A stretch of DNA of 64,000 nucleotides, taken from positions 930,001 through 994,000 of the forward strand of contig NZ_VFOZ01000001.1 in assembly GCF_006716425.1 (NCBI RefSeq), written 5' to 3'. The translations under genes were made by a program, and so were the position numbers. The number at the start of each line of letters is the position of its first letter. Position 1 is the stretch's first letter. Shown here piece by piece: positions 28,792-64,000 of the stretch. A model generated the notes under the pieces. It did not search any database, was not told the DNA's origin, and was given only the letters and a program-made list of their open reading frames with translations. Origin of the DNA: Actinoallomurus bryophytorum (lineage in GTDB: Bacteria > Actinomycetota > Actinomycetes > Streptosporangiales > Streptosporangiaceae).

Positions 28792-28846
28792 CCCGCCAGC
28801 ATCCCATCCACGGATCGCCGCCCACAGGACCCGGAGACGGCAAGCC

Positions 28847-28867
28847 GTCTCGCATCCGAGACACCGG
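28847..28867. promoter_or_regulatory. Putative Hut operator upstream of hutI
   Basis: GTCTCGCATCCGAGACACCG is an imperfect palindrome 56-76 bases before hutI. It shares the core GTCTnnnATnCGAGACAC with sites at 39839 (54-75 bases before hutH) and 54242. The similar distance to both hut start codons supports a common regulator. Confidence 0.65.
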
Positions 28868-39838: not shown

Positions 39839-39860
39839 TGTCTGAGATGCGAGACACTGG
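39839..39860. promoter_or_regulatory. Putative Hut operator between hutH and the WXG-type gene
   Basis: TGTCTGAGATGCGAGACACT is an imperfect palindrome 54-75 bases before hutH and about 100 bases before the divergent gene at 39960. It matches the site at 54242-54263 at 19 of 22 positions, and shares its core with the hutI site at 28847. Confidence 0.7.
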
Positions 39861-41558: not shown

Positions 41559-41740
41559 GGCCTGAGGTCCCGCTGTCCTACTGCGCGGCGCCCAGGCGGC
41601 GTCCCGTCGCGTTGTCGTCGGTCAACACCCCTTACTCCCCCTCCGCCTTGCGTGGCACCACCTGGACGCCGCTCGCTACGGACGGGGACTTCGAGGCAGG
41701 CCCTGGCGGATGGGGCGAGTATCGCGTGGCTGGGCACCCC

Positions 41741-41753
41741 GCGAGACACTGGG
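41741..41753. promoter_or_regulatory. Hut operator half-site before the IclR gene
   Basis: GCGAGACACTGGG is identical over 13 bases to the right half of the hutH site (39849-39861). The left half is not conserved. It lies 22-34 bases before the IclR start codon and may allow autoregulation. Confidence 0.45.
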
Positions 41754-41774
41754 CGGGAGCGGGGGAGGTTCCGG

Positions 41775-42548
41775 TTGTCCGGCGAACAGGTTCCGGCCGC
41801 GCGGCGTGTCCTCGCCGTGCTGCGCCTGCTGGCGTCCTCCGCACGTCCCCTGGCCGCGTCGACGATCGCACGCGAGCTCGACCTGCCGCGCTCCAGCACC
41901 TACCACCTCCTCACCGCGATGTCCGAGGAGGGCTTCGTGACGTACCTGCCCGAGGACCGGCTGTGGGGCCTCGGCGTGACGGCCTTCGAGATCGGCTCGG
42001 CCTATCTGCGACAGGGGCCGCTCGAACGCCTGGCCCGGCCGCTGCTCGTACGCCTGGTCGACCGGCTCGGTGAGATCGTCCAGCTCGGCGTGCTGCACGG
42101 GCCCGAGACGCTCTACCTGCTGAAGGAACAGCCGAGACACCACGCCACTCTGGTCACCGACGTCGGCGTGCGCATGCCCGCATACCTCACCGCCAGCGGC
42201 CGCGCGATGCTCGCATACCTACCGGCCGCCCAGGTCAGGGCGCTGATCCCGGGTGGTGACCTCCTCAACCGCACCGGCGCGGGGCCCCGCTCACTGCGGG
42301 AGCTGCGCCGCCTGCTCGCCGAGGACGCCCGCCGCGGGTGGGCGGTCGAGGACGGGCACGTGACCGAGGGGTTCGCGAGCATCGCGGCGTGCAGCTTCGA
42401 CCACGTCGGCCGGCCGGCGGCCGCGATCACGGTGACGTTCCGGCGAGACTCCCGCGCCGAGGCCGAATGGCCCGCCATCGCGACCTGCGCCCGCGAGGCG
42501 TCCGCCGAACTCACCCGCCGCCTGTCCGGCCACGCCCCCACCCGATAA
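41775..42548 (+). CDS. IclR-family regulator, probable regulator of histidine utilisation
   Basis: A 257-residue regulator. The N-terminal winged helix (VLAVLRLLASSARPLAASTIARELDLP, SSTYHLLTAMSEEGFV) is followed by a C-terminal IclR effector domain (LVRLVDRLGEIVQLGVLHGPETLYL to ACSFDHVGRPAAAITVTF). The TTG start at 41775 has GGGAGG 7-8 bases upstream; the frame is open further upstream without homology. It lies about 2 kb from hutH, and operator-like palindromes occur before hutI, hutH and the lyase gene at 54.5 kb. Control of those genes is inferred. Urocanate or imidazolone propionate would be a plausible effector. Confidence 0.85.
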   Translation: MSGEQVPAARRVLAVLRLLASSARPLAASTIARELDLPRSSTYHLLTAMSEEGFVTYLPEDRLWGLGVTAFEIGSAYLRQGPLERLARPLLVRLVDRLGEIVQLGVLHGPETLYLLKEQPRHHATLVTDVGVRMPAYLTASGRAMLAYLPAAQVRALIPGGDLLNRTGAGPRSLRELRRLLAEDARRGWAVEDGHVTEGFASIAACSFDHVGRPAAAITVTFRRDSRAEAEWPAIATCAREASAELTRRLSGHAPTR

Positions 42549-48104: not shown

Positions 48105-50021
48105 TCAAGGGGTGGCGCCGTGGGCCGGGGGCGAGACGACCCCGCCGACGACACCGTGCCGGCTCAGCCAGTCTCTCGCGACGGTCCGCCGGTCGACCCG
48201 GTCGACCAGGATCCGGACGTTCATCAGGAGCAGGTCGGCGGTGGTCAGCCTGGCCGAGACCGCGTTGAGGGCGGCCCGGCCAGGGGCGCTCAGCGCCGAC
48301 CGGTAGATGAGCGGCGTGACGTTCTGCACGCCGAACAGATGCTTCGGGTCGGCCAGCACGACGAGCCCGCTCGCGGCGATCGCGGGCTCGGTCGTGAAGA
48401 GGTTCGCCGCCTGGATGAGGCCATCCTCCAACTGCCGGACGATCGTGGCGCGGTCGTCGGTCGCGAAGGGCTGATAGTCACGGAAGTCCAGCTTGTAGGT
48501 CTGGCGTAAGCCGACCTGGCCCTGGTGCCGGGACTGGAACTCCCGCGACCCTCCCAGGACGATGTCGTGGTCCACCGGCCTGAGGTCGGCGATGGTGCGC
48601 AGGTGGTACCGGCCGGCCGTCTTCTTCGTCACGGTGACCGTGTCCTTGTCCTCGGCCGCCGCCGGATCCAGCAGCTGGAGCTGTGACGGCAGCGCCCGGC
48701 GGAGCACCTCGTTCACTCGCGCCGCGGTGGTCACGTCGCCGGCCGGGTCGAGGGCGGTGGCCAGCGCGCCGTTGTACTCCGGGATCACGTCGATCTGCCC
48801 GGACCTCACCTGCTCGTAGTAGGTTTCGCGGTCGCCCAGGTCGAACCTCCTCGTGACGCGGTAGCCCTTGGCCTCCAGCGCCTGGGCGTAGATCTCGGCG
48901 AGCAGGGAGCTCTCGGCGAAGTTGGCCGAGCCCACCGTGACCCGCCCGGGGCCCACGGCCCCCCTCGATCCGGTGCCCGGCCACAGGACGAAGGCGAGGG
49001 CGGCCGCGACGGCGACGGCGGAGCAGGCCGCGACGAGCGTCCGTGCCCTCGTCCATCTCCGGGACACCACCAGGGTCCGGTCGGGGCGGGTGTACGCGTC
49101 CGGACGTGTGGCGTTCTGCGGTACGGCGCCGCGCTCGGGCCGGTCGACCGTCAGGCGGTCCGGGCCGCGTACGCCCTCGGGCAGCGCGATCGCGGACGAG
49201 GCGGCCTCGACGTCTTGGTGGCCGAGCAACTGGAACAGGATGTCCCACGCCGCCGGACGCGCGCGTGGGTCCTTGTCCAGGCAGCGCGCGATCACCTCAC
49301 GGAACGGCGACGGGACGGCCGCGATGGTGGGCTCGTCGTTCAGGATGCGCTGGAACACCGCGGCGACGGTGTCCGCGCCGAAGGCCGGCTTTCCCGTCGC
49401 CGCGAACGTCATCGCGTTCGCCCAGCCGAAGATGTCGGCGGCGGGCGTGTGGTGCTCTCCGCCCAGGAGTTCGGGCGCGGCGTAGGCGGGGGTGCCGACC
49501 AGCCCGCTCGTGACGGTCGCGGCGTTGTCCAGTGCCCGCGCGATACCGAAGTCGATCACCCGCGGACCATCGGGGCCGATCAGCACGTTGTGGGGGGTGA
49601 AGTCGCGGTGCAGGACGCCGGCGCGGTGAACGGCCGTCAGGGCCGAGGCCGTACCGACCATGAGCCGGGCCAGGGTCCCGCCGGTCAGCGGCCCGTCCCG
49701 CTCGACGAGCTCCTGGAGCGAGGGTCCGTCGACGTACTCGCTCACGACGTACGAACGGCCGTCGTCGGCGCCCAGCTCGTACACGCGCGCGGTGCAGAAG
49801 TCCGCCACCCTGCGCACCATCGCGATCTCGTCGCTCAGCCGGGCGTGCGCCTCCGCGTCACGGAGCAGCCGTGGACGCAGCACCTTGAGCGCCACCGGGA
49901 CGCCGTCGCCTCCATCGGCACGGTAGACGATGCCCTGGCCGCCCTCGCCGAGGCGCCCGGTCAGGCGGTACCGTCCGATCCTCCCCGGGTCTTCCGCACG
50001 CAATGGGTCGATGTGCCGCAT
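48105..50021 (-). CDS. Ser/Thr protein kinase fused to an extracytoplasmic OpuAC-type substrate-binding domain
   Basis: A 638-residue membrane kinase. The cytoplasmic kinase domain (15-265) is complete: Gly loop GRLGEGGQG (23-31), Lys46, HRD (138-140) and DFG (157-159). A linker and one transmembrane helix (about 327-348) lead to an exported domain (360-630) of the quaternary-amine/osmoprotectant binding family. That domain is strikingly like the separate lipoprotein at 50.9 kb (VGSANF, EIYAQALEAKG, IPEYNGALAT, FTTEP, NVTPLIYRS). It presumably senses the transporter's ligand and phosphorylates cytoplasmic targets. It lies downstream of the importer operon on the same strand. Confidence 0.9.
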   Translation of the reverse strand: MRHIDPLRAEDPGRIGRYRLTGRLGEGGQGIVYRADGGDGVPVALKVLRPRLLRDAEAHARLSDEIAMVRRVADFCTARVYELGADDGRSYVVSEYVDGPSLQELVERDGPLTGGTLARLMVGTASALTAVHRAGVLHRDFTPHNVLIGPDGPRVIDFGIARALDNAATVTSGLVGTPAYAAPELLGGEHHTPAADIFGWANAMTFAATGKPAFGADTVAAVFQRILNDEPTIAAVPSPFREVIARCLDKDPRARPAAWDILFQLLGHQDVEAASSAIALPEGVRGPDRLTVDRPERGAVPQNATRPDAYTRPDRTLVVSRRWTRARTLVAACSAVAVAAALAFVLWPGTGSRGAVGPGRVTVGSANFAESSLLAEIYAQALEAKGYRVTRRFDLGDRETYYEQVRSGQIDVIPEYNGALATALDPAGDVTTAARVNEVLRRALPSQLQLLDPAAAEDKDTVTVTKKTAGRYHLRTIADLRPVDHDIVLGGSREFQSRHQGQVGLRQTYKLDFRDYQPFATDDRATIVRQLEDGLIQAANLFTTEPAIAASGLVVLADPKHLFGVQNVTPLIYRSALSAPGRAALNAVSARLTTADLLLMNVRILVDRVDRRTVARDWLSRHGVVGGVVSPPAHGATP

Positions 50022-50326: not shown

Positions 50327-50794
50327 TCAGAACGTTCTCCAGCTGAACAGCGAGTTCTTGTAGCTCGGCTTGAAGCCGTAGATGACCAGTGGAGCACCGG
50401 CCTTCGTCACCGCGCCGGATACGTTCCACCCCATGGTGGGCCCGGCCTTGTCCATTATCGAGTAGTAGTTGGGGGAGGTCGTGGTCCAGATCTCCGGGTA
50501 CCACTGGTCATTCGGCCCGGCACCGCATTTGTAGCTGATGACGTGCGTGTTGTTCGCGTAGACGCCGCCCTTGATATTGGTGCAGAGTCCCCAGTCGTCC
50601 GTGATCAACTGCCACGTGGGGCCGTCAGGCGAGTCTCTGAAGAAGAACCTCTGCGCCGCGCTGCCGCTGCACGGCTGCACGGTGATGTCACGCCCGCTGG
50701 CCCCGCCCGACTGCAGGCACAGGGACGGGTCGCTCTGGGGCCAGATCCGCCACGGCCCGGTGCCCGCGGCCGCCGGGCCGGCGGTGCCGACCAT
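50327..50794 (-). CDS. Ricin-B-lectin-like protein, N-terminus probably missing
   Basis: A 155-residue frame resembling a ricin-type beta-trefoil, with repeats SLCLQSGGASGRDITVQPC, AQRFFFRDS, NDQWYPEIW and a Cys-rich core. It opens directly after a stop codon with VGTAGPAAAGTGPW, which looks like the end of a signal peptide whose hydrophobic part is absent. No ribosome-binding site fits the ATG at 50794. It is either a truncated secreted lectin or a gene with a start-region frameshift. Its base composition is AT-richer than the neighbours. Confidence 0.5.
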   Translation of the reverse strand: MVGTAGPAAAGTGPWRIWPQSDPSLCLQSGGASGRDITVQPCSGSAAQRFFFRDSPDGPTWQLITDDWGLCTNIKGGVYANNTHVISYKCGAGPNDQWYPEIWTTTSPNYYSIMDKAGPTMGWNVSGAVTKAGAPLVIYGFKPSYKNSLFSWRTF

Positions 50795-50891: not shown

Positions 50892-51818
50892 TCAGCCGAG
50901 GCCGGCCTGGGACAGCCAGCCCTTGGCGACCGTGTCCGCGTCGTCCTTGTCGGCGACGAGCTTGGTCATCATGGCGAGCAGGTCCTGGGTGGTGAGCTTG
51001 GCCGAGACCGCGTTGAGCGTGGCCTGGGACGCGGCGTCCACCCCGGACTTGTAGATCAGCGGCGTGACATTCTGCGCGCTGAAGACGTTCTGGGGGTCGG
51101 CGAGCACGACGAACTTGTTCTGCGAGATCGTCGGGTCGGTCGTGAACAGGTCGGCCGCCTGGATGGTGTTGTTCTTCAGCAGCTTGACCAAGGTGGTCTG
51201 GGCGTTGGCGTCGAAGGACTGGAACTTCTTGAACTTCAGGCCATAGGTGCTCTGCAGGCCGACCAGGCCCTGCTGCCGGGTCTTGAACTCCGACGGGCCG
51301 CCGATGGTGACCTGACCGGCCGACGACTTCAGGTCCGCGATGGACTTGAGGCCGTACTTCTGGGCGGTCTGGGGGTTGACCGTCACCGAGTCCTTGTCCT
51401 CCGCCTGGGAGGAGTCCAGGATCGCCAGCGTCGAGGGCAGCTTGGCCTTGAGAGCGGCGTTGACATCGGCGGTGGTGACCGCCTTGCTCTCCTTGTCCAC
51501 CGACGTGGTCAGCAGCGCGCCGTTGTACTCCGGCATCACCGTGATCGCACCGGACTTGACCTGGTCGTAGTAGACCTCACGGCTACCGATGTTGAACTTC
51601 CTGGTGACCTTCACGCCCTTGGCCTCCAGCGCCTGGGCGTACACCTCACCCAGCAGCTGACTCTCGGGGAAGTTCGCCGAACCGACGACGACACTCCCTC
51701 CGCCACCGGCGGGTTTTTGGTCCAGCGGATTGCCGCTGTCCTTCTTGTCACCGCCGCACGCACTGACGACCAGCGCGACGACGACACCGAGAACGGCGCC
51801 ACGGACTATCCGGATCAT
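50892..51818 (-). CDS. Quaternary-amine ABC importer, substrate-binding lipoprotein (OpuCC/ProX-type)
   Basis: A 308-residue lipoprotein. The signal peptide ends in a lipobox (ALVVSACGG, Cys at about 20), then a Gly-rich linker and the OpuAC fold (VVVGSANFPESQLLGEVYAQ to AKGWLSQAGLG). The family binds betaines, choline, carnitine and, in some members, ergothioneine. The ATG at 51818 has AAGGAAA about 7 bases upstream; an earlier in-frame ATG is less likely. Last gene of the ATPase-permease-permease-lipoprotein operon. Confidence 0.88.
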   Translation of the reverse strand: MIRIVRGAVLGVVVALVVSACGGDKKDSGNPLDQKPAGGGGSVVVGSANFPESQLLGEVYAQALEAKGVKVTRKFNIGSREVYYDQVKSGAITVMPEYNGALLTTSVDKESKAVTTADVNAALKAKLPSTLAILDSSQAEDKDSVTVNPQTAQKYGLKSIADLKSSAGQVTIGGPSEFKTRQQGLVGLQSTYGLKFKKFQSFDANAQTTLVKLLKNNTIQAADLFTTDPTISQNKFVVLADPQNVFSAQNVTPLIYKSGVDAASQATLNAVSAKLTTQDLLAMMTKLVADKDDADTVAKGWLSQAGLG

Positions 51819-51872
51819 TGTTTGTTTCCTTCCCTGTTTCACGAAGTACGCATTTCCGGAGATCTGCTCGTC

Positions 51873-52604
51873 CTATTGATCGTTTATGGGTACGGAGATC
51901 ACGCGCCTCGACCGACTGCGATCAAGGCGGGACGACCCACGCAGGCCCTGAGACACGAGCACTCTCCGGAGGCCGATGAAGCCGAGCTGGACCACGACGG
52001 CGAGGAGCACGACCAGTAGCGAACCACCCACCACTGACGGATAGTCCTTACGGGAGAGACCATCGACGATGAAGCGGCCGAGACCGCCCAGGCCGGCGTA
52101 CGCCGCGATCGTCGCCGTCGCGACGATCTGGATCGCCGCCGTGCGCAGCCCGAGGAGGATCAGCGGCATGGCGACCGGTATCTCGGCCTTGAGCAGGACG
52201 CCGGTCCCCTTCATGCCCATCCCCTTGGCGGCGTCCTTGATGTCGTCGTCGACGCTGCGGATGCCCTCGAAGGTGTTCACGAGGATCGGCGGCGTCGCGA
52301 GGGCGATCAGCGGGACGATCACCGGGGTGAGGCCGATCGAGGTGACGGTGACCACGAGCAGGAGCAGGCCGAGCGTGGGGACGGCGCGTACCAGGTTGGC
52401 GAAGTTGACGACGATGAAGCCGCCGCGGCCGGTGTGGCCGACGAGCGCGCCGAGCGGCAGTGCGATGACGGCGGCGATGGCCAGCGCCAGCGCGCTGTAG
52501 CCCAGGTGCTCCAGCAGACGCGAGGGGATACCGTCGCCACCGCTCCAGTGAGAAGAGGCGGTGAGCCAGTTCCAGGCGGCGGTGATCTGGTCGGAGAGGT
52601 TCAT
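51873..52604 (-). CDS. Quaternary-amine ABC importer permease 2
   Basis: A 243-residue inner-membrane subunit with about five to six helices. The EAA-type loop is DDIKDAAKGMGMKGTGVLLKAEIPVAMPLI, followed by GLGGLGRFIVDGLSRKDY. It overlaps the upstream permease by 4 bases. It resembles OpuCD/OpuBD. Confidence 0.9.
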   Translation of the reverse strand: MNLSDQITAAWNWLTASSHWSGGDGIPSRLLEHLGYSALALAIAAVIALPLGALVGHTGRGGFIVVNFANLVRAVPTLGLLLLVVTVTSIGLTPVIVPLIALATPPILVNTFEGIRSVDDDIKDAAKGMGMKGTGVLLKAEIPVAMPLILLGLRTAAIQIVATATIAAYAGLGGLGRFIVDGLSRKDYPSVVGGSLLVVLLAVVVQLGFIGLRRVLVSQGLRGSSRLDRSRSRRVISVPINDQ

Positions 52605-53290
52605 CCGTTGCTCCTACGGGTGCGCGTCCACGGCGTGAGCAACCGCTGTGCCGTCACGAGGATGCCGTCGCTGAACAGCGCGAGCACCATGATCAGCACG
52701 CAGGAGACGATGATCGGCGTGGTGAAGTCGCGGGAGTAGCCGTCGATGAACAGCTGCCCGAGGCCGCCGTTGCCGATCAGCACGCCGACGCTCACCAGGC
52801 TGATCGAGGCGACCGTGGCCACGCGAGCACCGGCGATGACCACCGGGACCGCGATGGGCAGCTCGACCTGGACGAGCCGGCGAAGCGTACCGAAGCCCAT
52901 CGCGGTGGCCGCCTGGCGCACCGGGTCCGGGACCGACCGCAGCCCGTCGACGACGTTCGGCACGAGCACCGACAGCGAGAACAGCGTGAGCGGAATGATG
53001 ATCGTGAAATCCGCCTCGCCGCCGCTGCCGATGCCGAAGTACGGGATGAACAGCATGAACAGCGCCAGCGACGGCACGCCGTACAGGACGTTGGCGACGC
53101 CCAGCGTGGGGGGGTAGAGCCAGCGCCAGCGGACGCACAGGATCCCGAGCGGGATCGCGATGATCAGGCCGAAGAGGACCGGCAGCAGCGCGAGCTTCAG
53201 ATGATGGAGCGTGAGGGTGGTGAGCTCGTCGGTGTGGTCACCGATCCAGTTCCACCGGACGAGAGGTTCGCCGTCGGCGAGTGCGCTCAT
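52601..53290 (-). CDS. Quaternary-amine ABC importer permease 1
   Basis: A 229-residue permease with about five to six helices and the EAA loop DPVRQAATAMGFGTLRRLVQVELPIAVPVV, then IGNGGLGQLFIDGYSRDF. It overlaps both the ATPase gene and the next permease gene by 4 bases, so all are coupled. It resembles OpuCB/OpuBB. Confidence 0.9.
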   Translation of the reverse strand: MSALADGEPLVRWNWIGDHTDELTTLTLHHLKLALLPVLFGLIIAIPLGILCVRWRWLYPPTLGVANVLYGVPSLALFMLFIPYFGIGSGGEADFTIIIPLTLFSLSVLVPNVVDGLRSVPDPVRQAATAMGFGTLRRLVQVELPIAVPVVIAGARVATVASISLVSVGVLIGNGGLGQLFIDGYSRDFTTPIIVSCVLIMVLALFSDGILVTAQRLLTPWTRTRRSNG

Positions 53291-54120
53291 CGCTCGGCCG
53301 CCTCGACCTCGTCGGACGCGCCGCTCGCCGTGGAGGGAGCCGGCTCGTCGTCGGCGGTCGCCTCGAGCTCACGGTTGAAGCGCAGGCGCTTGAGGCCCTT
53401 CTGCCCGCCGAGGAACTCCGTCACGAAGCCTTCGGCGGGGTGGGAGAGCAGTTCGTCCGGCGTGGCGTGCTGGGCGAGGACGCCGCCGACCTGGAAGACC
53501 GCGATCCGGTGCCCGAGCTTGACCGCCTCGTCGATGTCGTGCGTGACGAAGGCGATGGTCTTCTGCACCTCGGACTGGAGCCGGAGGAACTCATCCTGCA
53601 GGCTCTTGCGCACGATGGGGTCGACCGCGCTGAACGGCTCGTCCATCAGCATGATCGGCGGATCGGCGGCGAGCGCACGCGCGACGCCCACACGCTGCTG
53701 CTGGCCGCCGGAGAGCTGGAACGGATAGCGCTTGGCCATCTTGGTGTCCAGTCCCACGCGCTCCATCAGTTCCATCGCCGTGGCCCGCGCCTTCTTCTTG
53801 TCCCAGCCGAGCAGATAGGGAACGGTCGCGATGTTGTCGATGATGGTGCGGTGCGGGAAAAGGCCCGCGTGCTGGATCACATAGCCGATGCCACGGCGCA
53901 GGTCCGACGGATCCTTCGCGCGAATGTCCTCGCCGTCGATCGTGATCGTTCCGGAAGTGGTGTCGATCAATCGATTGATCATCCGAAGCGTAGTGGTCTT
54001 GCCACAGCCGGACGGTCCGACCAGCACGGTGATCTGGCCCGACGGGATCTCCAGGTTCAGATCGTCGACGGCCACGGTGCCATCCGGATACCGCTTGGTG
54101 ACGCCCTCAAATTTGATCAA
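53287..54120 (-). CDS. Quaternary-amine ABC importer ATPase (OpuCA-like, no CBS domains)
   Basis: A 277-residue ATPase with Walker A GPSGCGKT (about 36-43), Q-loop VIQHAGLFPH, signature LSGGQQQRVGVARAL and Walker B IMLMDEPFSAVDP. Classical OpuCA proteins carry tandem CBS domains that sense ionic strength. Here the protein ends after about residue 240 with a short acidic low-complexity tail, so osmotic gating is unlikely. First gene of the operon. Its start region faces the lyase gene at 54490 across a 369-base divergent promoter. Confidence 0.9.
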   Translation of the reverse strand: MIKFEGVTKRYPDGTVAVDDLNLEIPSGQITVLVGPSGCGKTTTLRMINRLIDTTSGTITIDGEDIRAKDPSDLRRGIGYVIQHAGLFPHRTIIDNIATVPYLLGWDKKKARATAMELMERVGLDTKMAKRYPFQLSGGQQQRVGVARALAADPPIMLMDEPFSAVDPIVRKSLQDEFLRLQSEVQKTIAFVTHDIDEAVKLGHRIAVFQVGGVLAQHATPDELLSHPAEGFVTEFLGGQKGLKRLRFNRELEATADDEPAPSTASGASDEVEAAER

Positions 54121-54489
54121 GAGTGGCTCTCTCTCCTGGCGTTAGCGAGACCCACCCCGACGTCACCGCTCTGCCCCAATGGATGCTTCACGTCATTGCA
54201 CGGGAACGGCGCCGGCGACAGGACCCGACAAGACACGTTTCTGTCTGACATACGAGACACTAGACGAAGATCATTCGGATTACCCCGCGTTACGGGCCTT
54301 ATCATCCGGAACCAGGGGGCCGCATTCCGGCCGGACGGCCCCACCGGCAGGCCGAACACCTCGTCGGGCGTGCCGCCGTCGGCGCGACGCTCGGTGACGC
54401 CGTCGTTTCGGATCAAGGTGTTCCGCCCTGTGATTACCGGGATAAGAGGTCAAGATAGTGGAATATCTACTGTCCGTGATGGTTCGCCC
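54121..54489. promoter_or_regulatory. Divergent promoter region between the importer operon and the lyase-like gene
   Basis: 369 bases that contain the Hut-type palindrome at 54242-54263. No gene is supported. The operator is 122 bases from the importer start codon and 227 bases from the lyase start codon, so one bound regulator could affect both directions. Confidence 0.6.
54242..54263. promoter_or_regulatory. Putative Hut operator between importer and lyase-like gene
   Basis: TGTCTGACATACGAGACACT matches the hutH-promoter site at 19 of 22 positions. It keeps both half-sites of the palindrome (TGTCT and AGACA). Confidence 0.68.
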
Positions 54490-55935
54490 ATGAACCAAAC
54501 GGCCATAGCGGTCAACGGTAGCGGTTTGAACTGCGACGTTGTAGCCGCAGTGGCCCGTGACGGCGCCTTCGTTACCGTTACTCCACAAGCGGTCGAACGC
54601 GCGCGGCAGGCGTGGGAGGTCGTTCGCGAGGTCGCGACACGTCAGCCGGTGTACGGCCGGACCACCGGTGTCGGCGCCAACCGGAACGTCCTGATCGAGG
54701 ACGATGCCGCGCACGGCCTGCGGGTACTCCGCAGTCACTCCGGCGGGGCGGGACCCCTCATGTCGGCCGAGACCGTACGGGCGATGCTCATCGTGCGCCT
54801 CAACCAGATCGCCGCGGGCGGCTCCGGCGTCGACCCCGACGTGCTCGGCGCCCTCGCGGACGTGATCAACCGATGGCTGATCCCTCCGATTCCAGCGTAC
54901 GGCGCCATCGGCACCGGAGACCTGACCGCCCTCGCCTCGACCGCGCTGTGCCTGATCGGCGAGCGCCCGTGGCAGGGCAACGTGGTCGGCGCGCACTTTC
55001 CCCTGCGGCCGGCCGACGCGCTCGCGTTCATCAGCTCCAACGCGGCGACACTGGGCGAGTCGGCGCTGGCCTGCCGTGACGTCCTCGAACTCCTGCGCGT
55101 GTCGATCCCGGTGACCGGCCTGTCGCTGCTGGCCGTACAGGGCTCCGCGGAGGCGTACGCCGCGCCGGTGCACGCCGGGTGCCCGCACCCGGGGCGGCGC
55201 CGCGTCGCGGACGCCATGCGCGGACTGCTCGAAGGGGAGGAGCTCAAGCCCGCGCGCATCCAGGACCCGTACGGCTACCGCGCCTTCCCCCAGGTGCACG
55301 GGCCGGCCGTGGACGCCGTGGAGAACGCCGAGACGGTCGTGACCCGGGAGATCAACGCCTCGTCGGAGAACCCCCTCGTGGACGTGGCGAACCGTACGGT
55401 CTGGCACAACGGCAACTTCCACACCGCGTACGTGGGCCTGGGGCTGGACGCGGTCCGCGCGGCGATGTTCCAGACCGCGGCGCTGTCGGCGGCGCGCCTG
55501 GGCACGCTGGTCGAGCCGACGTTCACCGGCCTGCAGCCCTTCCAGGCGGCGCCGGGCGAGCCGGGCTCGGGCATCATGATCCTGGAGTACGTCGCCCACT
55601 CGGCCATCGCCGACATCCGCCGGCTGGCCACGCCGTCCGCGCTCGGCAGCGCCGTGCTGTCCCGTGGCGTGGAGGAGCACGCGGGTTTCTCCACACAGTC
55701 GGCACGCGCCACGACGGAGGCGGTCACGGCGTACCGCATCGTGCTCGCGTGCGAACTCATCGCCGCGGTACGCGCCCTGCGCATGCAGGGCCGCGAGCCG
55801 TCGGGACGGCTGGGCGAGGTGTTCGCCCGCAGCGCGGACGCACTGGACTCCGCCGTCGAGGACCGGGCACTGGACGGCGACATCAGCTCCGCCGCCGACC
55901 TCCTCCCCCGCCTCGCCCCGTACGGCGTTTATTAG
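54490..55935 (+). CDS. HAL/PAL-superfamily lyase lacking the MIO triad (candidate betaine lyase)
   Basis: A 481-residue member of the aromatic amino acid ammonia-lyase superfamily. It keeps the catalytic Tyr motif as YGRTTGVGANRN (Tyr55), the PQVHGPAVDAVENAE block, INASSENPLVD and NGNFHTAYVG. The cofactor region reads PAYGAIGTGDLTALA, where hutH has [15 protein letters not shown]. One residue is missing and the Ser that forms MIO is absent (Gly141-Thr142-Gly143). Ergothionase of this superfamily, which expels trimethylamine, is described as not relying on MIO, since a quaternary amine is already a good leaving group. With the adjacent betaine importer and Hut-type operator, cleavage of hercynine or ergothioneine is the favoured guess. 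Confidence 0.8.
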   Translation: MNQTAIAVNGSGLNCDVVAAVARDGAFVTVTPQAVERARQAWEVVREVATRQPVYGRTTGVGANRNVLIEDDAAHGLRVLRSHSGGAGPLMSAETVRAMLIVRLNQIAAGGSGVDPDVLGALADVINRWLIPPIPAYGAIGTGDLTALASTALCLIGERPWQGNVVGAHFPLRPADALAFISSNAATLGESALACRDVLELLRVSIPVTGLSLLAVQGSAEAYAAPVHAGCPHPGRRRVADAMRGLLEGEELKPARIQDPYGYRAFPQVHGPAVDAVENAETVVTREINASSENPLVDVANRTVWHNGNFHTAYVGLGLDAVRAAMFQTAALSAARLGTLVEPTFTGLQPFQAAPGEPGSGIMILEYVAHSAIADIRRLATPSALGSAVLSRGVEEHAGFSTQSARATTEAVTAYRIVLACELIAAVRALRMQGREPSGRLGEVFARSADALDSAVEDRALDGDISSAADLLPRLAPYGVY

Positions 55936-56324: not shown

Positions 56325-57110
56325 TCAGGTGTCGTACTCGTCGGGCAGGCGCATCGCCGGGCCGCCGACGTTCAGGCCCAGTGGGGTCGCGCGGCCCTTC
56401 GGTTCCTCCCACTCCTCCTGGCGGCCGAGGGCGGTGAGGTCGAGGTACTCATAACCGTTGTGGAACTCCTCGATGCCGCGGCCGTACGTGGAGTAGGTGT
56501 GGAAGACCTCATCGCCGACCCGCAGGAAGGCGCTGATGCCCGGGAGCTCCTCCCCGCGCATGCTCTCCGTCCACGGGCCTCCCGTCCACGGTGTCCCGAC
56601 CTCGGCGAGTTCGGCCTCGGTGCGGAAGTGGAGCAGCACCGGCGCGACCCGGTCGTCGAGGGTGGCGTGGAAGTCGTAGTTGAAGTCGCTGCCGTAGGAG
56701 GAGTACCAGGGGAACGTCCAGCCCATCCGCTCGCGGAACGCGGCGATCTTCTCGTACGGAGCCCGTGACACCGCGACGAGCGTGGTGTTGCGCACGTGGA
56801 GCTGCCGCAGTCTGCCGATCCCGTCGGCGGCGGAGGAGCAGCTCGGGCAGCCCTGGTCCCAGTCCGGGGCGAACATGAAGTGGTGCATCACCAGCTGCGG
56901 CCGGCCCTCGAACAGGTCGGGCAGGCTCACCGTCCCGTCCGGGCCCTCGAACGTGTACGGCTTGTCCATGCGGACCATCGGCAGGCGACGGCGGTCGGCG
57001 TTGACCCGGGTACGGGCCCGGGTCAGTTCCTTCTCCTTCTCCAGCAGTTCCTTGCGGGCGGCGAGCCACTCCTCGCGCGACACGACCTCGGGCAGGTTCC
57101 CCATCGTCAT
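56325..57110 (-). CDS. DUF899 thioredoxin-fold protein
   Basis: A 261-residue DUF899 family protein. It begins NLPEVVSREEWLAARKELLE and has LPDLFEGRPQLVMHHFMF, then the redox-like Cys pair GCPSCSSAADG and SRAPYEKIAAFRERMGWTFPW. Structure-based annotation places the family among thioredoxin-like folds; its activity is unknown. The ATG at 57110 and a second ATG two codons later both fit. It stands alone. Confidence 0.82.
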   Translation of the reverse strand: MTMGNLPEVVSREEWLAARKELLEKEKELTRARTRVNADRRRLPMVRMDKPYTFEGPDGTVSLPDLFEGRPQLVMHHFMFAPDWDQGCPSCSSAADGIGRLRQLHVRNTTLVAVSRAPYEKIAAFRERMGWTFPWYSSYGSDFNYDFHATLDDRVAPVLLHFRTEAELAEVGTPWTGGPWTESMRGEELPGISAFLRVGDEVFHTYSTYGRGIEEFHNGYEYLDLTALGRQEEWEEPKGRATPLGLNVGGPAMRLPDEYDT

Positions 57111-57720: not shown

Positions 57721-58746
57721 TCAGTTGACCTCGGGATCGACGCCGCGGGCCCGGCCGGTGGACTCGCGCTGGAGGAGGCTGGGCTCGCAGACGATGCGCC
57801 GCCTGCGGGGCTTGCCGTCGATCGCGCCGATCATGACGCGGACCGCGGAGTGGACGATGCCCTCGATGTCCCAGTCGACGCTGGTCAGCGGGGGCGTGAG
57901 CAGGCCGGACATCGGGTGGTTGTCGAAGCCGGCGACCGAGACGTCCTCCGGGACGGCCAGGCCCAGCTCGCGAGTGGCGGCGTAGACGCCGTAACCGATG
58001 GAGTCGGAGAAGCAGAAGAGCGCGGTCGGCCGCGGGGAGTTGCCCAGGACGTCGAGTGCGACGTCGGTGGCGGCGCCGAGCGCCTGGGGAGAGGTGACCA
58101 CGTCGACCTTGACGCCCAGCCGTTCGGCTTCGGCGTTGACGTGGATGTCGGCCGGACGGTCGGGAGTGCGGGCCACCGTCGGGGTGAGCACGGCGATGTG
58201 CCGGTGGCCCAGGTTGTACAGATGCTCCAGCGCCAGGGTGACGCCCGCACGGTTGTCGAAGACCACCTCGCCGTAGGCGTGGCCGCCGGGCAGTGAGTCT
58301 CCGATCGAGACGATCGGCAGGCTCTCGGCGAGGTCGGCCCACAGGGCGGCGGACGGGTCGACCGGCTGCACGATGAGCCCGTCGACCCGCTGGTCGCGCA
58401 GTTGGCGGGCGAGCATCAGCTCGCGCTCAGGGTCGCCCGCCGCGTCCAGGATGATGGCGAAGCGGTCGCGGGCGAACAGCGCGCGGCCGATGCCCACCGC
58501 CAGGGACTGCTGCCACAGGTCCTCGAGAGAGCCGCAGAGCAGGCCCACCATGCCGCTGCGCCCGCTGGCCAGCGCGCGGGCGATCGGATGGGCCTCATAG
58601 CCCAGCTCCTCGGCGGCCTTGCGGACCCGCTCCTGCGTCTCTTCTGAGGTCTGGATGCCACGCAGCGCGTATGAGACGGCGGCGGGCGAGAGCCCCGTCG
58701 CCTTCGCCACCTCGCGGATCGTCGCGCGCTTTCGCTGCTGCGTCAC
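57721..58746 (-). CDS. LacI-family regulator, last gene of the egt operon
   Basis: A 341-residue regulator. The helix-turn-helix (TIREVAKATGLSPAAVSYALRG, 9-30) with hinge helix (HPIARALASGRSGMVG) is followed by a periplasmic-binding-protein-like effector domain. It starts 9 bases after egtD on the same strand, so it is probably co-transcribed with egtABCD. Four LacI-like operators lie before egtA, so autoregulation of the operon is likely. Effector unknown. Confidence 0.85.
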   Translation of the reverse strand: MTQQRKRATIREVAKATGLSPAAVSYALRGIQTSEETQERVRKAAEELGYEAHPIARALASGRSGMVGLLCGSLEDLWQQSLAVGIGRALFARDRFAIILDAAGDPERELMLARQLRDQRVDGLIVQPVDPSAALWADLAESLPIVSIGDSLPGGHAYGEVVFDNRAGVTLALEHLYNLGHRHIAVLTPTVARTPDRPADIHVNAEAERLGVKVDVVTSPQALGAATDVALDVLGNSPRPTALFCFSDSIGYGVYAATRELGLAVPEDVSVAGFDNHPMSGLLTPPLTSVDWDIEGIVHSAVRVMIGAIDGKPRRRRIVCEPSLLQRESTGRARGVDPEVN

Positions 58747-58755
58747 GCCCCAACC

Positions 58756-59718
58756 CTATAGAGCAGGCCGGACAAGACTGAGGACGAAGTCTTGATCCTT
58801 GTCAGTCCACCACTGGTCAACCCGGAGGCCCGCCGCCTCCATCGAAGCCTCGAAGCGTTCGCGGCGGAACTTCGCCGAGATCTCGGTGCGCATCTCCTCC
58901 CCCGCCGCGAACTCCACGACCAGGTCAAGGGCCGCGACGCGTACGGTCTGGGCCTGCGTCGAGCGCAGCCGCATCTCGATCCGCTCTTCCGTGCCGTCCC
59001 ACACCGCGACGTGGGAGAACCGCGAGACGGCGAAGTCGGCGCCGAGCTCACGGTTGATCACGTGCAGCACGTTGCGGTTGAACTCCGCGGTCACGCCGCG
59101 CGCGTCGTCGTACGCGCGTACGAGCCGCTGCGGCGCCTTGACCAGGTCGGCGCCGATGAGCAGCGCGTCGTCCTCGGCCATGGTGGCGCGCAGCCCGCCG
59201 AGGAAGGACACGCGCTCGTCCGGCTCCATGTTGCCGATCGTGCCGCCGAGGAAGGCGATCAGGCGACGCTCGCCCGCCGGCAGCTGGTCCAGGTGGCGTT
59301 CGTAGTCGGCGACGATCGGCTGGATCGAAAGTGCCGGATACTCTGTCGCGATCTGCTCCGCCGCCGTGGCGAGGAAGTCGCCGCTGACGTCCACCGGGAC
59401 GTACGTCCCCAGCGTCCCGCCGAGCGCGTCGAGCAGGAGCCGTGTCTTCTCCCCCGACCCGGCGCCGAGCTCGAGCAGCGTGCGCGCTCCGGTCACCGAG
59501 GCGATCTCGGCCGCGCGTTCGGTGAGGATGGCGCGCTCGCGACGTGTCGGGTAGTACTCCTCCAGCCTGGTGATCTCCTCGAACAGCTCACTCCCGCGCT
59601 CGTCGTAGAACCATTTCGGCGGCAGCGTCTTCGGGAAGGCGGTCAGCCCGTCGGCGACGTCCTGCCGGAGCGACTTGCCGAGGTCGTCAGGCGTGAGAAA
59701 GCTCTTGGTGGTCGGCAC
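58756..59718 (-). CDS. egtD: L-histidine N-alpha-methyltransferase
   Basis: EgtD trimethylates histidine to hercynine with three SAM, the first committed step of ergothioneine synthesis. The 320-residue protein shows FLTPDDLGKSLRQDVADGL, LPPKWFYDERGSELFEEIT, the SAM motif LLELGAGSGEKTRLLLDAL and FLGGTIGNMEPDE. The GTG at 59718 has GAGGAG 7 bases upstream and is preferred over the ATG 15 bases earlier, which has no ribosome-binding site. It follows egtC. Confidence 0.95.
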   Translation of the reverse strand: MPTTKSFLTPDDLGKSLRQDVADGLTAFPKTLPPKWFYDERGSELFEEITRLEEYYPTRRERAILTERAAEIASVTGARTLLELGAGSGEKTRLLLDALGGTLGTYVPVDVSGDFLATAAEQIATEYPALSIQPIVADYERHLDQLPAGERRLIAFLGGTIGNMEPDERVSFLGGLRATMAEDDALLIGADLVKAPQRLVRAYDDARGVTAEFNRNVLHVINRELGADFAVSRFSHVAVWDGTEERIEMRLRSTQAQTVRVAALDLVVEFAAGEEMRTEISAKFRRERFEASMEAAGLRVDQWWTDKDQDFVLSLVRPAL

Positions 59719-59757
59719 TGAGGATCTCCTCATCGAGTTTCGGCCGAGGTGAGCGGA

Positions 59758-60498
59758 TCAGAGTGGGCTGATGTCGACGCCCCCCGGACCGGCGGTCACG
59801 AGTGATCGGTCGGGCACCTCCTCCCATCCGGGTTCGTCGTCGTACGGCTCGGAGGCGAGCACGACGTCCGAGCCCCCGAGGTCGCGGACGAAGAGCGTGT
59901 CCCCCCAGGTCGTGGCCGCCAGCTGCGTACCGTCGGCGGCCAGCAGGTTGTAGCGGCCGCCGGCCAGCGGGGTGACGGTGCGCACGGCGTGAACCAGGCC
60001 CTCGGCCAGCGACCGGCCGGCGCGCCACGGGGCGGCGGCCAGCGCGAACAGCAGGGCCGAGTCCACCGGCGCACGCGCGTCCGGCACCGGGGCGAGGTCG
60101 CCGGCCAGCTCGCGCAGCTTCGCCTCCACCCCGCCGAACCCCTGGATCACTCCGTTGTGGCTGAACAGCCGCGTCCCGTCCGTGAACGGCTGGGCGCACG
60201 ACTCGTCGACGGGAAAGCCGACGGTCGCCGACCGGACCGCCGCGACCGCGCATCGCGTGCGCACCACGTCGGCGACGTCGGCGAAGGACAGGTCGGTCCA
60301 CATCGGCTGGGTGCGCCGGTAGCGCACGGGGGCGTCGCGGGCGGGGTCGTACCAGCCCGCGCCGAACCCGTCCGCGTTCAGGATGCAGGCGCGCGACATG
60401 CGCGGTGCGTACGCCTGCGTCTCCAGCGAGTGCTCCGGCGCGTACAGCAGCTCGTGCAGGCTCCGCGTGCCGCCGAGGTAGCCCAGGTGACGGCACAT
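59758..60498 (-). CDS. egtC: Gamma-glutamyl-hercynylcysteine sulfoxide amidohydrolase
   Basis: EgtC is an Ntn-type glutamine amidotransferase-like enzyme that removes glutamate from gamma-glutamyl-hercynylcysteine sulfoxide. The start at 60498 gives MCRHLGYLG, placing the nucleophile Cys at position 2 as the mechanism requires. Other features are ADGFGAGWYD and LFSHNGVIQGF. The ATG overlaps the egtB stop (TGATG). 246 residues is normal. Confidence 0.94.
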   Translation of the reverse strand: MCRHLGYLGGTRSLHELLYAPEHSLETQAYAPRMSRACILNADGFGAGWYDPARDAPVRYRRTQPMWTDLSFADVADVVRTRCAVAAVRSATVGFPVDESCAQPFTDGTRLFSHNGVIQGFGGVEAKLRELAGDLAPVPDARAPVDSALLFALAAAPWRAGRSLAEGLVHAVRTVTPLAGGRYNLLAADGTQLAATTWGDTLFVRDLGGSDVVLASEPYDDEPGWEEVPDRSLVTAGPGGVDISPL

Positions 60499-61787
60499 CA
60501 GGCATCCCTCGCGCAACGGAAGCCGGAGAAGATCTGCCGGCGGATCGGGTAGTCCCAGTTGCGGAAGGTGGGCCGGCCGGACAGGGGGTGCGTCGCCCAG
60601 GACCCGCCCTTCAGCACCTTGTAGTCATCGCCGAAGAACACCTCGGAGTACTCCTTGTAGGGGAAGGATCGGAAGCCGGGGTAGCCGTGGAAGCTCGTCG
60701 AGGTCCACTCCCACACGTCCCCGACCAGCTGCCGTACGCCGTAGGCCGACGCGCCCTCCGGGTAGGAGCCCAGCGGTGAGGGGTGGAGCCGGCGCTGCCC
60801 GAGGTTGGCGTGCGCGTCGGCCTCGCCCGAGTCGCCCCAGGGCAGACGGCGCTTGCGGCCCGCCACGGGATCCCAGCTCGCGGCCTTCTCCCACTCCGCC
60901 TCGGTCGGCAGCCGCCGTCCCGCCCACCGGGCGTAGGCGTCCGCCTCGTACCAGCAGACGTGCTGTACGGGCTCGTTCATGGGCACGGGTTCGACCCGGC
61001 CGAGCCGTCGCCGCATCCACTGGCCGCCCTCGCGGAACCAGAACGCCGGGGCCTCCTTGCCTGAGGTGGACCTCCACTCCCATCCCTTCGGCTGCCACCA
61101 GCGCGGGTCCTGGTATCCGCCCGCCTCGACGAACGCGGCGTAGGCGGCGTTGCCGACCGGTGTCGTGTCGATGTAGTAGGACGGCACGTCGACCAGGTGG
61201 CCGGGCCGTTCGTTGTCGTACGCCCACGGGTCGTCCGAGGTCCCCATGAGGAAGGGACCGCCGGGGACGAGCACCTCCGCGCCGACCGCCTCACCCGTGC
61301 CGGGTTCCTGTCCGGGCGGGTCGAGCAGCGCCGGGGCGCCCTTGCGCAGCTGGTGGGTGGCCAGCATGGTCTCGTCGTGCATGTGCTCGTGCTGGATGAC
61401 CATGTGGTAGACGAAGCCGTCCCCGGCGAGGGCGCCGACGAGCGGCACCTTCTCCAGGGAGTCGATCACCCTGTCGCGCACCGTGGTGACGTACGCGCGG
61501 CTCTCCTTGGGCGTGAGCAGCGGCAGCGACGGGCGTTCGGCACGGGGATGCTCGAAGGCGTCGTAGATGTCGTCGATGTCGGGGCGTACGGCCTCGGCTC
61601 CGGCCGCCGCGCGCAGCAGCCACTGCTCCTCGTAGTTGCCGATGTGGGCCAGGTCCCAGACGAGCGGCGACATCAACGGGGAGACCTGCGAGGTCAGCTC
61701 GGGGTCCTCCAGCGCCCCCACCGTCAGCCCGAAGCTGCGGTCGCGCGCCGCGACCAGCTCCGCGACGATCCGTTCCTTCACATCCAT
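60498..61787 (-). CDS. egtB: Hercynine oxygenase (sulfoxide synthase)
   Basis: EgtB is a non-haem iron enzyme that joins hercynine and gamma-glutamylcysteine with O2. The 429 residues comprise an N-terminal DinB-like domain and a C-terminal FGE-sulfatase fold (GGPFLMGTSDDPWAYDNERP, RRLPTEAEWEKAASWDP, YKVLKGGSWATHPLSGR). Iron ligand motifs are LAHIGNYEEQWL and QHEHMHDETML. It overlaps egtA by 10 bases and egtC by one base. Confidence 0.95.
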   Translation of the reverse strand: MDVKERIVAELVAARDRSFGLTVGALEDPELTSQVSPLMSPLVWDLAHIGNYEEQWLLRAAAGAEAVRPDIDDIYDAFEHPRAERPSLPLLTPKESRAYVTTVRDRVIDSLEKVPLVGALAGDGFVYHMVIQHEHMHDETMLATHQLRKGAPALLDPPGQEPGTGEAVGAEVLVPGGPFLMGTSDDPWAYDNERPGHLVDVPSYYIDTTPVGNAAYAAFVEAGGYQDPRWWQPKGWEWRSTSGKEAPAFWFREGGQWMRRRLGRVEPVPMNEPVQHVCWYEADAYARWAGRRLPTEAEWEKAASWDPVAGRKRRLPWGDSGEADAHANLGQRRLHPSPLGSYPEGASAYGVRQLVGDVWEWTSTSFHGYPGFRSFPYKEYSEVFFGDDYKVLKGGSWATHPLSGRPTFRNWDYPIRRQIFSGFRCARDA

Positions 61788-62977
61788 AGTTCCTCCTTGC
61801 CGGCGGGCACCCGCGCGCCGGAGCCCCCGGAGGTCGTGCCCAGGGGGGTTTCATCGGCTCCGTCGGCGGGGCAGCGGCCGCGTGCCACGAAGCGTTCTGT
61901 GTAGTCGTCGACGAGGGGGACGAGTGCCGACGCTCCGAGCCTTGGCAGCGCGTCGCGCGCGGCCTCGAAGCAGCGGCGTGCGGCGCGCCCCAGTACGGGG
62001 TCGGTGAGGCCGAGGCGTGCGGCCTGCCACCAGCGGTCCGCCGCGGGTTCGGTCGCCTCGGCGGCGATGTCGGCGGCCATCGGATCCTCGATCAGCGCCG
62101 CGACCACCGCGATCGGCACGGGCCAGTAGGGCTCCGGCAACGCGTCGATCATCCGCAGCTCCAGCCAGCCCTGGGGGCGTACCGGCGGGAACAGCGTGGT
62201 CAGGTGGTAGGCGAGGTCGGTGACGTCCGGCCGTCCGTCGGTGATCCACTCGCGGAAGGTCATGCCGGGGTCGGGCACCCAGCCGTCCCGCAGCAGCATG
62301 ACCCGCGCGTCGAGGGCGTACTCCGCCCACGCCGTCACCGGGTCATCCCCCACGACCGGCCCGGTACGGCCGCGGTCGAGCGCCTCCCAGACCACCTGGC
62401 GGGAGGAGCGGTGGCCGCCCCCCGGCGAGTTGGCGAACGCCGCCACCAGCATCGGCCCCAGGGCGTGCGCGAGCTGCCAGCGCCGCGCCGCGTCCTTCTC
62501 GTCGGCCCCGATGTCGAGGCAGACCTGCAGCGAGGCCGTCGCGCACATCATGGCCAGCCCCGGTTCGCCGAAGTAGGCGCGCATGCAGCGATAACGGCCC
62601 TCGTCGAGCTGGAAGGGCGCGCGCACGTCGCGGGGATCCGTACCCCGCCCCAGCAGTGCCAGCCCCTCCTGGGCCAGCCGTCCCCCCACGTGGGCGATGT
62701 CCGCCGCGAGAGCGGCGTGCGCCGCCGTGACACCCCGTTGCGGTTGCGAGCTGAGCTCGAGCTGACCTCCCGGTTCGTACGTGATCCGGCTGCCGGCGGG
62801 CGGTGGGCCCGCGGCCTCCATGGCCGTACGCAACAGGGTGATCGGCACGTGCCGTTCGGGTTCGCGCCGGTCGACGACGAACCACTCGGTCTCCGCGCCC
62901 ACCTGCCCAGGTGGCCCGGTCTTGAAACAGACACCGCTGATGTGTTCGTACACGTCGTCCAAGGTCAGACGGGTCAT
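61778..62977 (-). CDS. egtA: Glutamate-cysteine ligase of ergothioneine synthesis
   Basis: EgtA makes the gamma-glutamylcysteine used by EgtB. The 399-residue protein belongs to the GCS2 family (GAETEWFVVDRREPERHVP, ITYEPGGQLELSSQP, CATASLQVCLDIG). It heads the egt operon on this strand. The 204-base gap to the divergent amidohydrolase holds four LacI-like operators. Confidence 0.92.
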   Translation of the reverse strand: MTRLTLDDVYEHISGVCFKTGPPGQVGAETEWFVVDRREPERHVPITLLRTAMEAAGPPPAGSRITYEPGGQLELSSQPQRGVTAAHAALAADIAHVGGRLAQEGLALLGRGTDPRDVRAPFQLDEGRYRCMRAYFGEPGLAMMCATASLQVCLDIGADEKDAARRWQLAHALGPMLVAAFANSPGGGHRSSRQVVWEALDRGRTGPVVGDDPVTAWAEYALDARVMLLRDGWVPDPGMTFREWITDGRPDVTDLAYHLTTLFPPVRPQGWLELRMIDALPEPYWPVPIAVVAALIEDPMAADIAAEATEPAADRWWQAARLGLTDPVLGRAARRCFEAARDALPRLGASALVPLVDDYTERFVARGRCPADGADETPLGTTSGGSGARVPAGKEELWM

Positions 62978-63181: not shown

Positions 63182-64000
63182 GTGGCGACCGACGTACACC
63201 AACACGTGTGGGGCCCGGCCTTCATCGACGCTCTGCGCGGGCGGACGTTGGTGCCCCGGCTCGACGGCTGGACTCTGCATCTCGACGGCGAGGCGCCGTA
63301 CGACGTCGATCCCGCCGACCACGATTTGGCGGCGCGTTCGGCGCTCGCCGCCACGGACGGTTTCGACCGCGTCCTGACTTCTCTGTCCTCGCCACTCGGA
63401 ATCGAGTGGCTCGCCCCGCCTGACAGTACCCCGTTGCTGGATGCCTACCACGAGGACGCTCTCGCGCTGCCGGCCCCGTTCGGGGCGTGGGCGGCCGCCT
63501 GCGTCGCCGAGATCGACGCGCCCGGCCTCGCCCGGTGGCTGGACCGCGGCTTCACGGGCCTGCAACTTCCCGCGAACGCGCTTGTCGACGCGGCCGGCTA
63601 CGAACGCTGTGAGCCGCTGCTGTCGCTGCTGGAGGAACGCGGGCTGCCGCTGTTCGTCCATCCCGGGCCCGCTCCGGACGCCTCCGGACCCTCCTGGTGG
63701 CCCGCTCTCGTCCCGTACGTCCAGCAGATGCACGCGGCGTGGTTCGCGTTCCGCGCGTTCGGGCGTGCGAGTCATCCGCGGCTGCGGGTGTGCTTCGCGC
63801 TGCTCGCCGGCCTGGCTCCGCTGCACGGCGAGCGCCTCGCCGTACGCGGCGGGGGTCGCGGCGAGGTCGACCGCGACGCCTTCGTCGAGACCTCGTCCTA
63901 CGGGCCGCGCGCCATCGACGCGACGATACGGGCGCTCGGCATCGACACGATCGTGTGCGGCTCTGACCGGCCGTACGCACCACCGCCCGGCGACCTCGGC
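63182..64000 (+). CDS. Amidohydrolase-2-type TIM-barrel metal hydrolase (partial, runs off the window)
   Basis: The first 273 codons of an amidohydrolase (ACMSD-like) family protein. The metal motif VHQHVWG is at residues 5-11, followed by GFTGLQLPANAL, LPLFVHPGPAPD and the late Asp in IVCGSDRPYAP. The GTG at 63182 follows GGGAGCGCC. It is divergent from egtA across the LacI-like operators, so it may be co-regulated with ergothioneine synthesis. Substrate unknown; the 3' end is outside the window. Confidence 0.75.
   Translation, partial: MATDVHQHVWGPAFIDALRGRTLVPRLDGWTLHLDGEAPYDVDPADHDLAARSALAATDGFDRVLTSLSSPLGIEWLAPPDSTPLLDAYHEDALALPAPFGAWAAACVAEIDAPGLARWLDRGFTGLQLPANALVDAAGYERCEPLLSLLEERGLPLFVHPGPAPDASGPSWWPALVPYVQQMHAAWFAFRAFGRASHPRLRVCFALLAGLAPLHGERLAVRGGGRGEVDRDAFVETSSYGPRAIDATIRALGIDTIVCGSDRPYAPPPGDLG

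Follow-up and report, generated by a model that had tools for sequence, protein, structure and literature searches.

The stretch analysed here (the window) is 64 kb of the Actinoallomurus bryophytorum genome, positions 930001-994000 of contig C1 in the 9.47-Mb genome G000. From left to right it carries hutI, hutF, an M20 gene, hutU, hutH, an IclR gene, a kinase gene, an importer, a lyase gene, a LacI gene and egtDCBA. Our subject is the lyase, a member of the histidine ammonia-lyase (HAL) superfamily without the 4-methylideneimidazole-5-one (MIO) cofactor, together with the importer and the hut operator between the two. The first-pass annotation had described an OpuC-type importer, its ATPase devoid of CBS domains, divergent from a histidine-lyase-family enzyme, and we confirmed both coordinates and gene content. 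With moderate confidence we read this module as a hercynine lyase plus importer that the window strain has recruited to its hut regulon. Its features are as follows.

54490-55935, plus strand: MIO-less HAL-superfamily lyase, 481 amino acids, proposed hercynine trimethylamine-lyase (PF00221, 370 bits; own clade, 100/100; residue table)
54242-54259: hut operator TGTCTGACATACGAGACA in the importer-lyase gap (window and genome-wide pattern searches)
53287-54120, minus strand: importer ATPase, ProV-like, 277 amino acids, Pfam matches without a CBS domain
52601-53290, minus strand: importer permease 1
51873-52604, minus strand: importer permease 2
50892-51842, minus strand: substrate-binding protein (SBP), a lipoprotein of the OpuAC family without an aromatic cage (PF04069, 171 bits; pocket comparison); the earlier start was an in-frame ATG at 51818

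Residues and phylogeny of the lyase

With HutH models the lyase scores 283-288 bits, below their cut-offs of 524-539 (283 against 539 in one case), and its closest relative found, 90% identical, comes from an Actinoallomurus metagenome-assembled genome (L028). Aligned to GSLGCSGDL of the window HutH, its triad region reads GAIG-TGDL, a one-residue deletion. We compiled a residue table of 30 rows from the lyase clade, 13 from the HAL clade, 5 from the ergothionase clade and 3 from a further MIO-less clade, applying to the columns what we take to be the HAL numbering. The A142 column is empty in 30/30, 5/5 and 3/3 rows of the three MIO-less clades, respectively, which bears out the earlier statement that the Ala-Ser-Gly cofactor triad is missing; since the gap recurs in every lyase-clade row it is no sequencing slip, and we rejected the idea of a HutH paralogue whose triad has been damaged. 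N195 is replaced by Ser in all lyase-clade and ergothionase-clade rows, and Q413 is replaced in 28/30 lyase-clade, 5/5 ergothionase-clade and 3/3 third-clade rows.

Much of the HAL active site is retained. Equivalents of Tyr53 and His83 occur in all 28 filled lyase-clade rows and those of Gln277, Arg283, Phe329 and Glu414 in 30/30, while the Tyr280 position holds Tyr (14), Phe (14), Leu (1) or Val (1). Glu366 is invariant in the lyase clade; this position is Gln in 12/13 HAL-clade rows and either Glu (2/5) or Gln (3/5) in the ergothionase clade. A lysine in an I-x-x-Q-K stretch, presumably catalytic in ergothionases, is present in 4/5 ergothionase-clade and 3/3 third-clade rows; it is Tyr in 30/30 lyase-clade rows, as in 12/13 of the HAL clade. 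Phenylalanine and tyrosine ammonia-lyases also belong to this superfamily, so a lyase of another aromatic betaine, such as hypaphorine or the betaine of tyrosine or phenylalanine, is conceivable; yet the Ser82-His83 pair is HAL-like in all filled lyase-clade rows except one with Thr-His, and together with the hut operator and urocanase linkage described below this makes such a substrate very improbable.

The comparison with ergothionase and HAL proposed at first pass placed the lyase in a clade of its own, separate from those of HutH and ergothionase (30 rows, 100/100). In the first tree (52 rows) the ergothionase clade was supported at 100/100 and the HAL clade at 100/99. A second tree, to which AdmH and HAL 7tqr were added and from which the long-branch PF00221 protein L022 12358-14511 was left out, again put the lyase and ergothionase clades each on one side of a branch (100/100) and split 14 HAL rows plus AdmH from the three MIO-less clades at a single branch (99/100). 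On this tree, which has no independent root, a single event, either loss or gain of MIO, would account for all three clades. The HAL group in trees and table is not purely MIO-bearing: a Sciscionella protein (L081 11181-12995), encoded directly downstream of a lyase gene, lacks the triad (GSVG---YLGP, three residues shorter), which implies at least one additional, separate loss of MIO. In each MIO-less clade, some members neighbour a betaine-type importer or a (thio)urocanate hydratase. Within the ergothionase clade, a gene annotated as hutH on Sinorhizobium meliloti pSymA (L110 8929-10569) encodes an MIO-less lyase (GSVGQADM) and lies near a gene named dimethylsulfoniopropionate lyase. The superfamily is known; for the lyase clade we found no assigned function, and the open-access papers searched yielded no hercynine lyase.

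The hut operator and the linked urocanases

Beyond the module, the window holds the following features.

63182-64000, plus strand: Amidohydro_2 gene, only its start inside the window; pairs with a cysteine dioxygenase (CDO)-type gene at G000:C1:994074-994571
58756-62977, minus strand: egtD, egtC, egtB and egtA, each above its NCBIfam cut-off
57721-58746, minus strand: LacI-family regulator, a frequent lyase companion (44/90 loci)
48105-50021, minus strand: Ser/Thr kinase with an OpuAC-type extracellular domain, 53% identical to the window SBP
41652-42548, plus strand: IclR regulator adjoining hutH
39839-39856: hut operator TGTCTGAGATGCGAGACA preceding hutH
38247-39785, minus strand: hutH, intact triad GSLGCSGDL (TIGR01225, 667 bits, cut-off 539)
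36583-38235, minus strand: hutU, sole urocanase match of the genome (TIGR01228, 917 bits; single PF01175 match)
35302-36579, minus strand: M20 amidohydrolase of the hut cluster
33980-35302, minus strand: hutF, formimidoylglutamate deiminase (NF006681, 666 bits, cut-off 362); start estimated from the model match, open frame extending to 35674
28846-28863: near copy of the hut operator, preceding hutI
27649-28791, minus strand: hutI, imidazolonepropionase (TIGR01224, 364 bits, cut-off 298)

A DUF899 gene (56325-57110) lies between the lyase and LacI genes, and a small open reading frame (50327-50794, 155 amino acids) that looks beta-trefoil-like by eye adjoins the SBP gene.

The Hut-type operator that the first-pass annotation saw between importer and lyase is confirmed: TGTCTGACATACGAGACA repeats TGTCTGAGATGCGAGACA, which lies about 53 bases upstream of the hutH start, and these two sites are the only exact copies of TGTCTNNNNNNNNAGACA in the window. 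Because the patterns were derived from the sites themselves the match statistics are partly after the fact: with up to one mismatch, TGTCTNNNNNNNNAGACA has 4 matches in the window against 0.73 expected, a number reached in 0/100 shuffles; over the whole genome the joint pattern TGTCTGANATNCGAGACA has mismatch-free copies solely at the lyase gap and hutH (backwards control 0; 0.0004 expected in a random genome at 71% G+C); and the symmetric form TGTCTCGNATNCGAGACA with up to two mismatches adds only the site about 54 bases upstream of hutI. Relatives provide independent support, as the palindrome upstream of hutH is found in 20/21 of their gaps. In the window strain the operator is thus common to hutH, hutI and the lyase gap, and no other strain compared has it at the last of these sites. 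It would bring the importer and lyase genes under hut control, with the IclR protein as its likely reader. No palindrome common to the ATPase-lyase gaps was found across 55 loci, and a Pseudomonas-type HutC site, searched with a pattern that we assume to be correct, had no match near the locus.

Other copies, with two mismatches, lie at C1:325477, directly upstream of an open frame, and at C2:876302-876319, upstream of a second SBP gene (product 91% identical to the window SBP). The latter occupies the gap between this gene and a divergent group comprising a second MIO-less lyase of the genome (L027 9627-13311, G000:C2:873626-877310; GSIGSSDL, His83 replaced by Arg) and an ornithine cyclodeaminase-family gene. 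Rhizobium (L114) and Prauserella (L080) also have lyases of this clade, there in the company of betaine-type importers.

A scan of public genomes gave at least 567 lyase-related stretches, of which the best 80 were retained; we counted 90 lyase loci (L016-L107 minus L026 and L027), some counts using all 92. A transporter lies within 12 kb of the lyase in 72/90 loci, 58 having an ABC importer and 14 an MFS permease instead (L018, L073, L074, L075, L078, L081, L084, L085, L093, L094, L096, L102, L103 and L106). Within the same distance hutU occurs in 21/90, and an RpiR-type regulator accompanies 19/92. The usual order in Thermomonosporaceae is hut, IclR, importer, lyase, LacI, egt. In two distant lineages lyase, importer and urocanase form one apparent operon. 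The first (L020 in genome G041) carries on a single strand RpiR, symporter, hutH, ATPase, two permeases, SBP, lyase, M20 (PF01546, 48 bits), hutU and hutF, the lyase frame at its longest overlapping the end of the SBP gene by 4 bases; the second, on an Arthrobacter plasmid (L113), carries IclR, ATPase, two permeases, SBP, hutU and lyase on a single strand, with hutF and M20 facing away. In a phylum sample, urocanase lies within 10 kb of the lyase in 4/11 lyase genomes with urocanase, two of the four being of one genus, against 0.038 expected.

These arrangements bear on whether the enzyme deaminates histidine without MIO or is an inactive paralogue retained for regulation. In favour of such a role, a search beside the lyase in L113 and L101 turned up no HutH gene, and the window lyase shares its operator with hutH. 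However, an intact-triad HutH is encoded in the same apparent operon in L020 and nearby in the window, which leaves little need for another ordinary HAL; the 47 invariant columns across 36 diverse lyase members favour catalysis, and HAL with mutated MIO is orders of magnitude less active. We consider this explanation quite improbable.

NCBIfam has separate models for urocanase (TIGR01228) and thiourocanate hydratase (cut-off 930). The lyase-linked urocanases are true HutU in 7/7 tested (window, L016, L020, L022, L033, L101 and L113), scoring 875-933 with TIGR01228 and all falling below the thiourocanate hydratase cut-off (661 bits for the window HutU), whereas the enzyme beside an ergothionase-clade lyase in Burkholderia (L115) is a thiourocanate hydratase with 1044 bits. 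Urocanate, and hence hercynine, is therefore likelier than ergothioneine, judging from these model matches. An ergothionase in disguise, acting on ergothioneine or its sulfonate directly to give thiourocanate, would account for the one-residue triad deletion and the Ser in place of N195, both seen in the Treponema denticola ergothionase, and for the adjoining egt genes and 8qfl-kind dioxygenase; moreover, one ergothionase-clade lyase (L109) also lies beside a true HutU. The two clades are nevertheless separate at 100/100 each, the ergothionase-clade Lys is absent, thiourocanate hydratase accompanies none of the seven tested lyases and the window genome has a single urocanase match. Ergothioneine as the direct substrate, allowed for at first pass, was thus not borne out, and we judge it unlikely. 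By clade, residues and tested partners the lyase is not an ergothionase, although it should work like one.

Points against hercynine and the binding protein

Several observations weigh against a hercynine module under hut control. Neither importer type is near the lyase in 18/90 loci, and hutU is absent from the examined DNA in 69/90, many of these stretches ending at 10 kb. The palindrome occurs in 0/50 of the relatives' importer-lyase gaps. The L109 case means that urocanase linkage is not peculiar to the lyase clade. Urocanase was found in 11/12 lyase genomes against 126/384 (p 5e-5), a co-occurrence confounded by kinship, and one lyase genome, G129, has no urocanase match. Since genomes of genus g3 in the sample contain urocanase with or without the lyase, and kinship confounds both comparisons, we set urocanase and EgtD co-occurrence aside. 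Lastly, the aromatic cage and Asn for trimethylammonium are not found in the window SBP, where D149-K-D151 takes the place of EgtU N339-T-Y341 and Gln that of Y443. ProX of Mycobacterium tuberculosis, MtProX, is described as lacking the cage and not binding betaine, choline or carnitine; it bound polyphenols at 20-70 uM (PMC5894108).

The importer consists of an OpuAC-type SBP, two permeases and a ProV-like ATPase (310 bits with the proV subfamily model, just under its cut-off of 327). The closest PDB match of the SBP is Lmo1422 (84 bits), followed by EgtU (79 bits). Compared with the EgtU cage residues, as given in PMC9732360, Tyr419 is replaced by Phe and Phe293 by Tyr, and Glu375 and Arg379 are retained. 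MtProX and the window SBP probably form one group, going by the published description of MtProX. The idea that an OpuC-type importer is by itself a betaine carrier was not supported: the window SBP has no cage and MtProX is reported to bind no betaine. Nor do we take the pocket of the SBP to prove that its ligand is a betaine, since the pocket residues are typical of a wider actinobacterial group; D151 occurs in 55/56 lyase-linked rows and in 31/32 comparison rows, 7 of the 32 (L120, L121, L122, L126, L128, L132 and L151) being from the window genome or lyase-adjacent. The L020 SBP retains the cage motifs GSKNFTEQ, PEYTGT, NNTYA and FYQPAP, in favour of a quaternary-ammonium substrate for the L020 module. 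The kinase at 48105-50021 is a possible sensor of the SBP's ligand; in a marker search of loci L016-L107 the pairing of kinase and OpuAC domain appeared elsewhere only in Actinoallomurus purpureus (L076).

The neighbouring sulfur genes, the proposed reaction and known systems

The CDO-type gene lies just past the window end, after the Amidohydro_2 gene, and matches PDB 8qfl over 158 residues with 262 bits (8qfl-8qfr were matched). The entry was deposited under the name 'Cysteine dioxygenase'; we take 8qfl-8qfr to be the ergothioneine dioxygenase of Nalivaiko, Vasseur and Seebeck (2024). Such a CDO is near the lyase in 43/92 loci, mainly Thermomonosporaceae but also Prauserella (L080), Actinophytocola (L091, two pieces) and, more distantly, L022; Nonomuraea L112, outside this count, has it too. 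The Amidohydro_2 and CDO-type pair (window 63182-64000; L153 3183-4572) is often near the lyase and adjoins egtA in the window strain. Of 30 genomes searched, 12 with the lyase, G000 alone yielded the close CDO form, and the lyase is therefore independent of it. An egt operon does lie close by, as first noted; the suggestion that synthesis and salvage are neighbours was not supported as stated, with egtD near the lyase in 33/90 loci and no EgtD match in 4/12 lyase genomes of the phylum sample.

In the reaction we propose, the importer would bring in a histidine derivative with a quaternised alpha-nitrogen, most likely hercynine, from which the lyase would expel trimethylamine by plain 1,2-elimination without MIO; because trimethylamine is a good leaving group, the electrophilic cofactor would not be needed. 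Tyr55 (HAL Tyr53) would take the beta-proton, Arg264 bind the carboxylate, and His83 and Glu395 the imidazole. Urocanate would then pass to glutamate by way of HutU, HutI, HutF and the M20 enzyme. Operator control, leaving group, substrate, residue roles and SBP ligand are all inferred. The imidazole- and carboxylate-binding residues kept in the pocket do not fix the number of N-methyl groups, and the SBP lacks the classic trimethylammonium cage, so that the substrate might be another N-alpha-substituted histidine (dimethylhistidine, ring-methylated hercynine or another onium). Against this, without MIO neither dimethylamine nor ammonia leaves readily, and among natural histidine betaines hercynine is the common one; we find such a substrate unlikely. 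Of the original proposal that a trimethylated histidine is imported and trimethylamine released, the MIO-less lyase for a histidine-like substrate is supported, along with its hut operator in this strain and its urocanase linkage in several lineages; the part that made ergothioneine a direct substrate is not.

The nearby thiol dioxygenase might make hercynine from ergothioneine. We tentatively suggest, with somewhat more doubt than belief, a route from ergothioneine to glutamate between hut and egt, in which the 8qfl-type dioxygenase and the amidohydrolase would desulfurise ergothioneine to hercynine, the lyase would yield urocanate and trimethylamine and the Hut enzymes would do the rest; more broadly, MIO loss may mark betaine lyases. 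If the hercynine lyase reading is correct, a large family now scored as distant histidine ammonia-lyase has another chemistry, hercynine enters the histidine pathway by its own entry point, actinobacteria release trimethylamine from ergothioneine-type compounds more widely than one would expect from the few ergothionases known, and cage-less binding proteins such as the orphan MtProX gain a ligand to test.

Among known systems, the T. denticola ergothionase (6s7j/6s7q) shares with the lyase the PF00221 fold family, the absence of MIO, the same deletion, Ser for N195 and a replaced Q413 (28/30); in contrast, the lyase belongs to another clade, has Tyr for Lys and an invariant Glu366, and its tested linked urocanases are true ones. 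Like HutH it keeps the equivalents of Tyr53, Ser82-His83, Gln277, Arg283, Phe329 and Glu414, but it lacks the Ala/Cys-Ser-Gly triad, has N195 replaced and stays below the HutH cut-offs. The window importer has the build of EgtU/EgtV, OpuC and ProXVWZ (OpuAC-type SBP, two permeases, ProV-like ATPase), although its SBP, unlike EgtU, has lost the cage (Asn339, Tyr341, Tyr443) while keeping Glu375 and Arg379. The CDO-type gene by the cluster resembles the 8qfl-type thiol dioxygenase over its matched length; fewer than half of the 92 loci have such a gene near the lyase.

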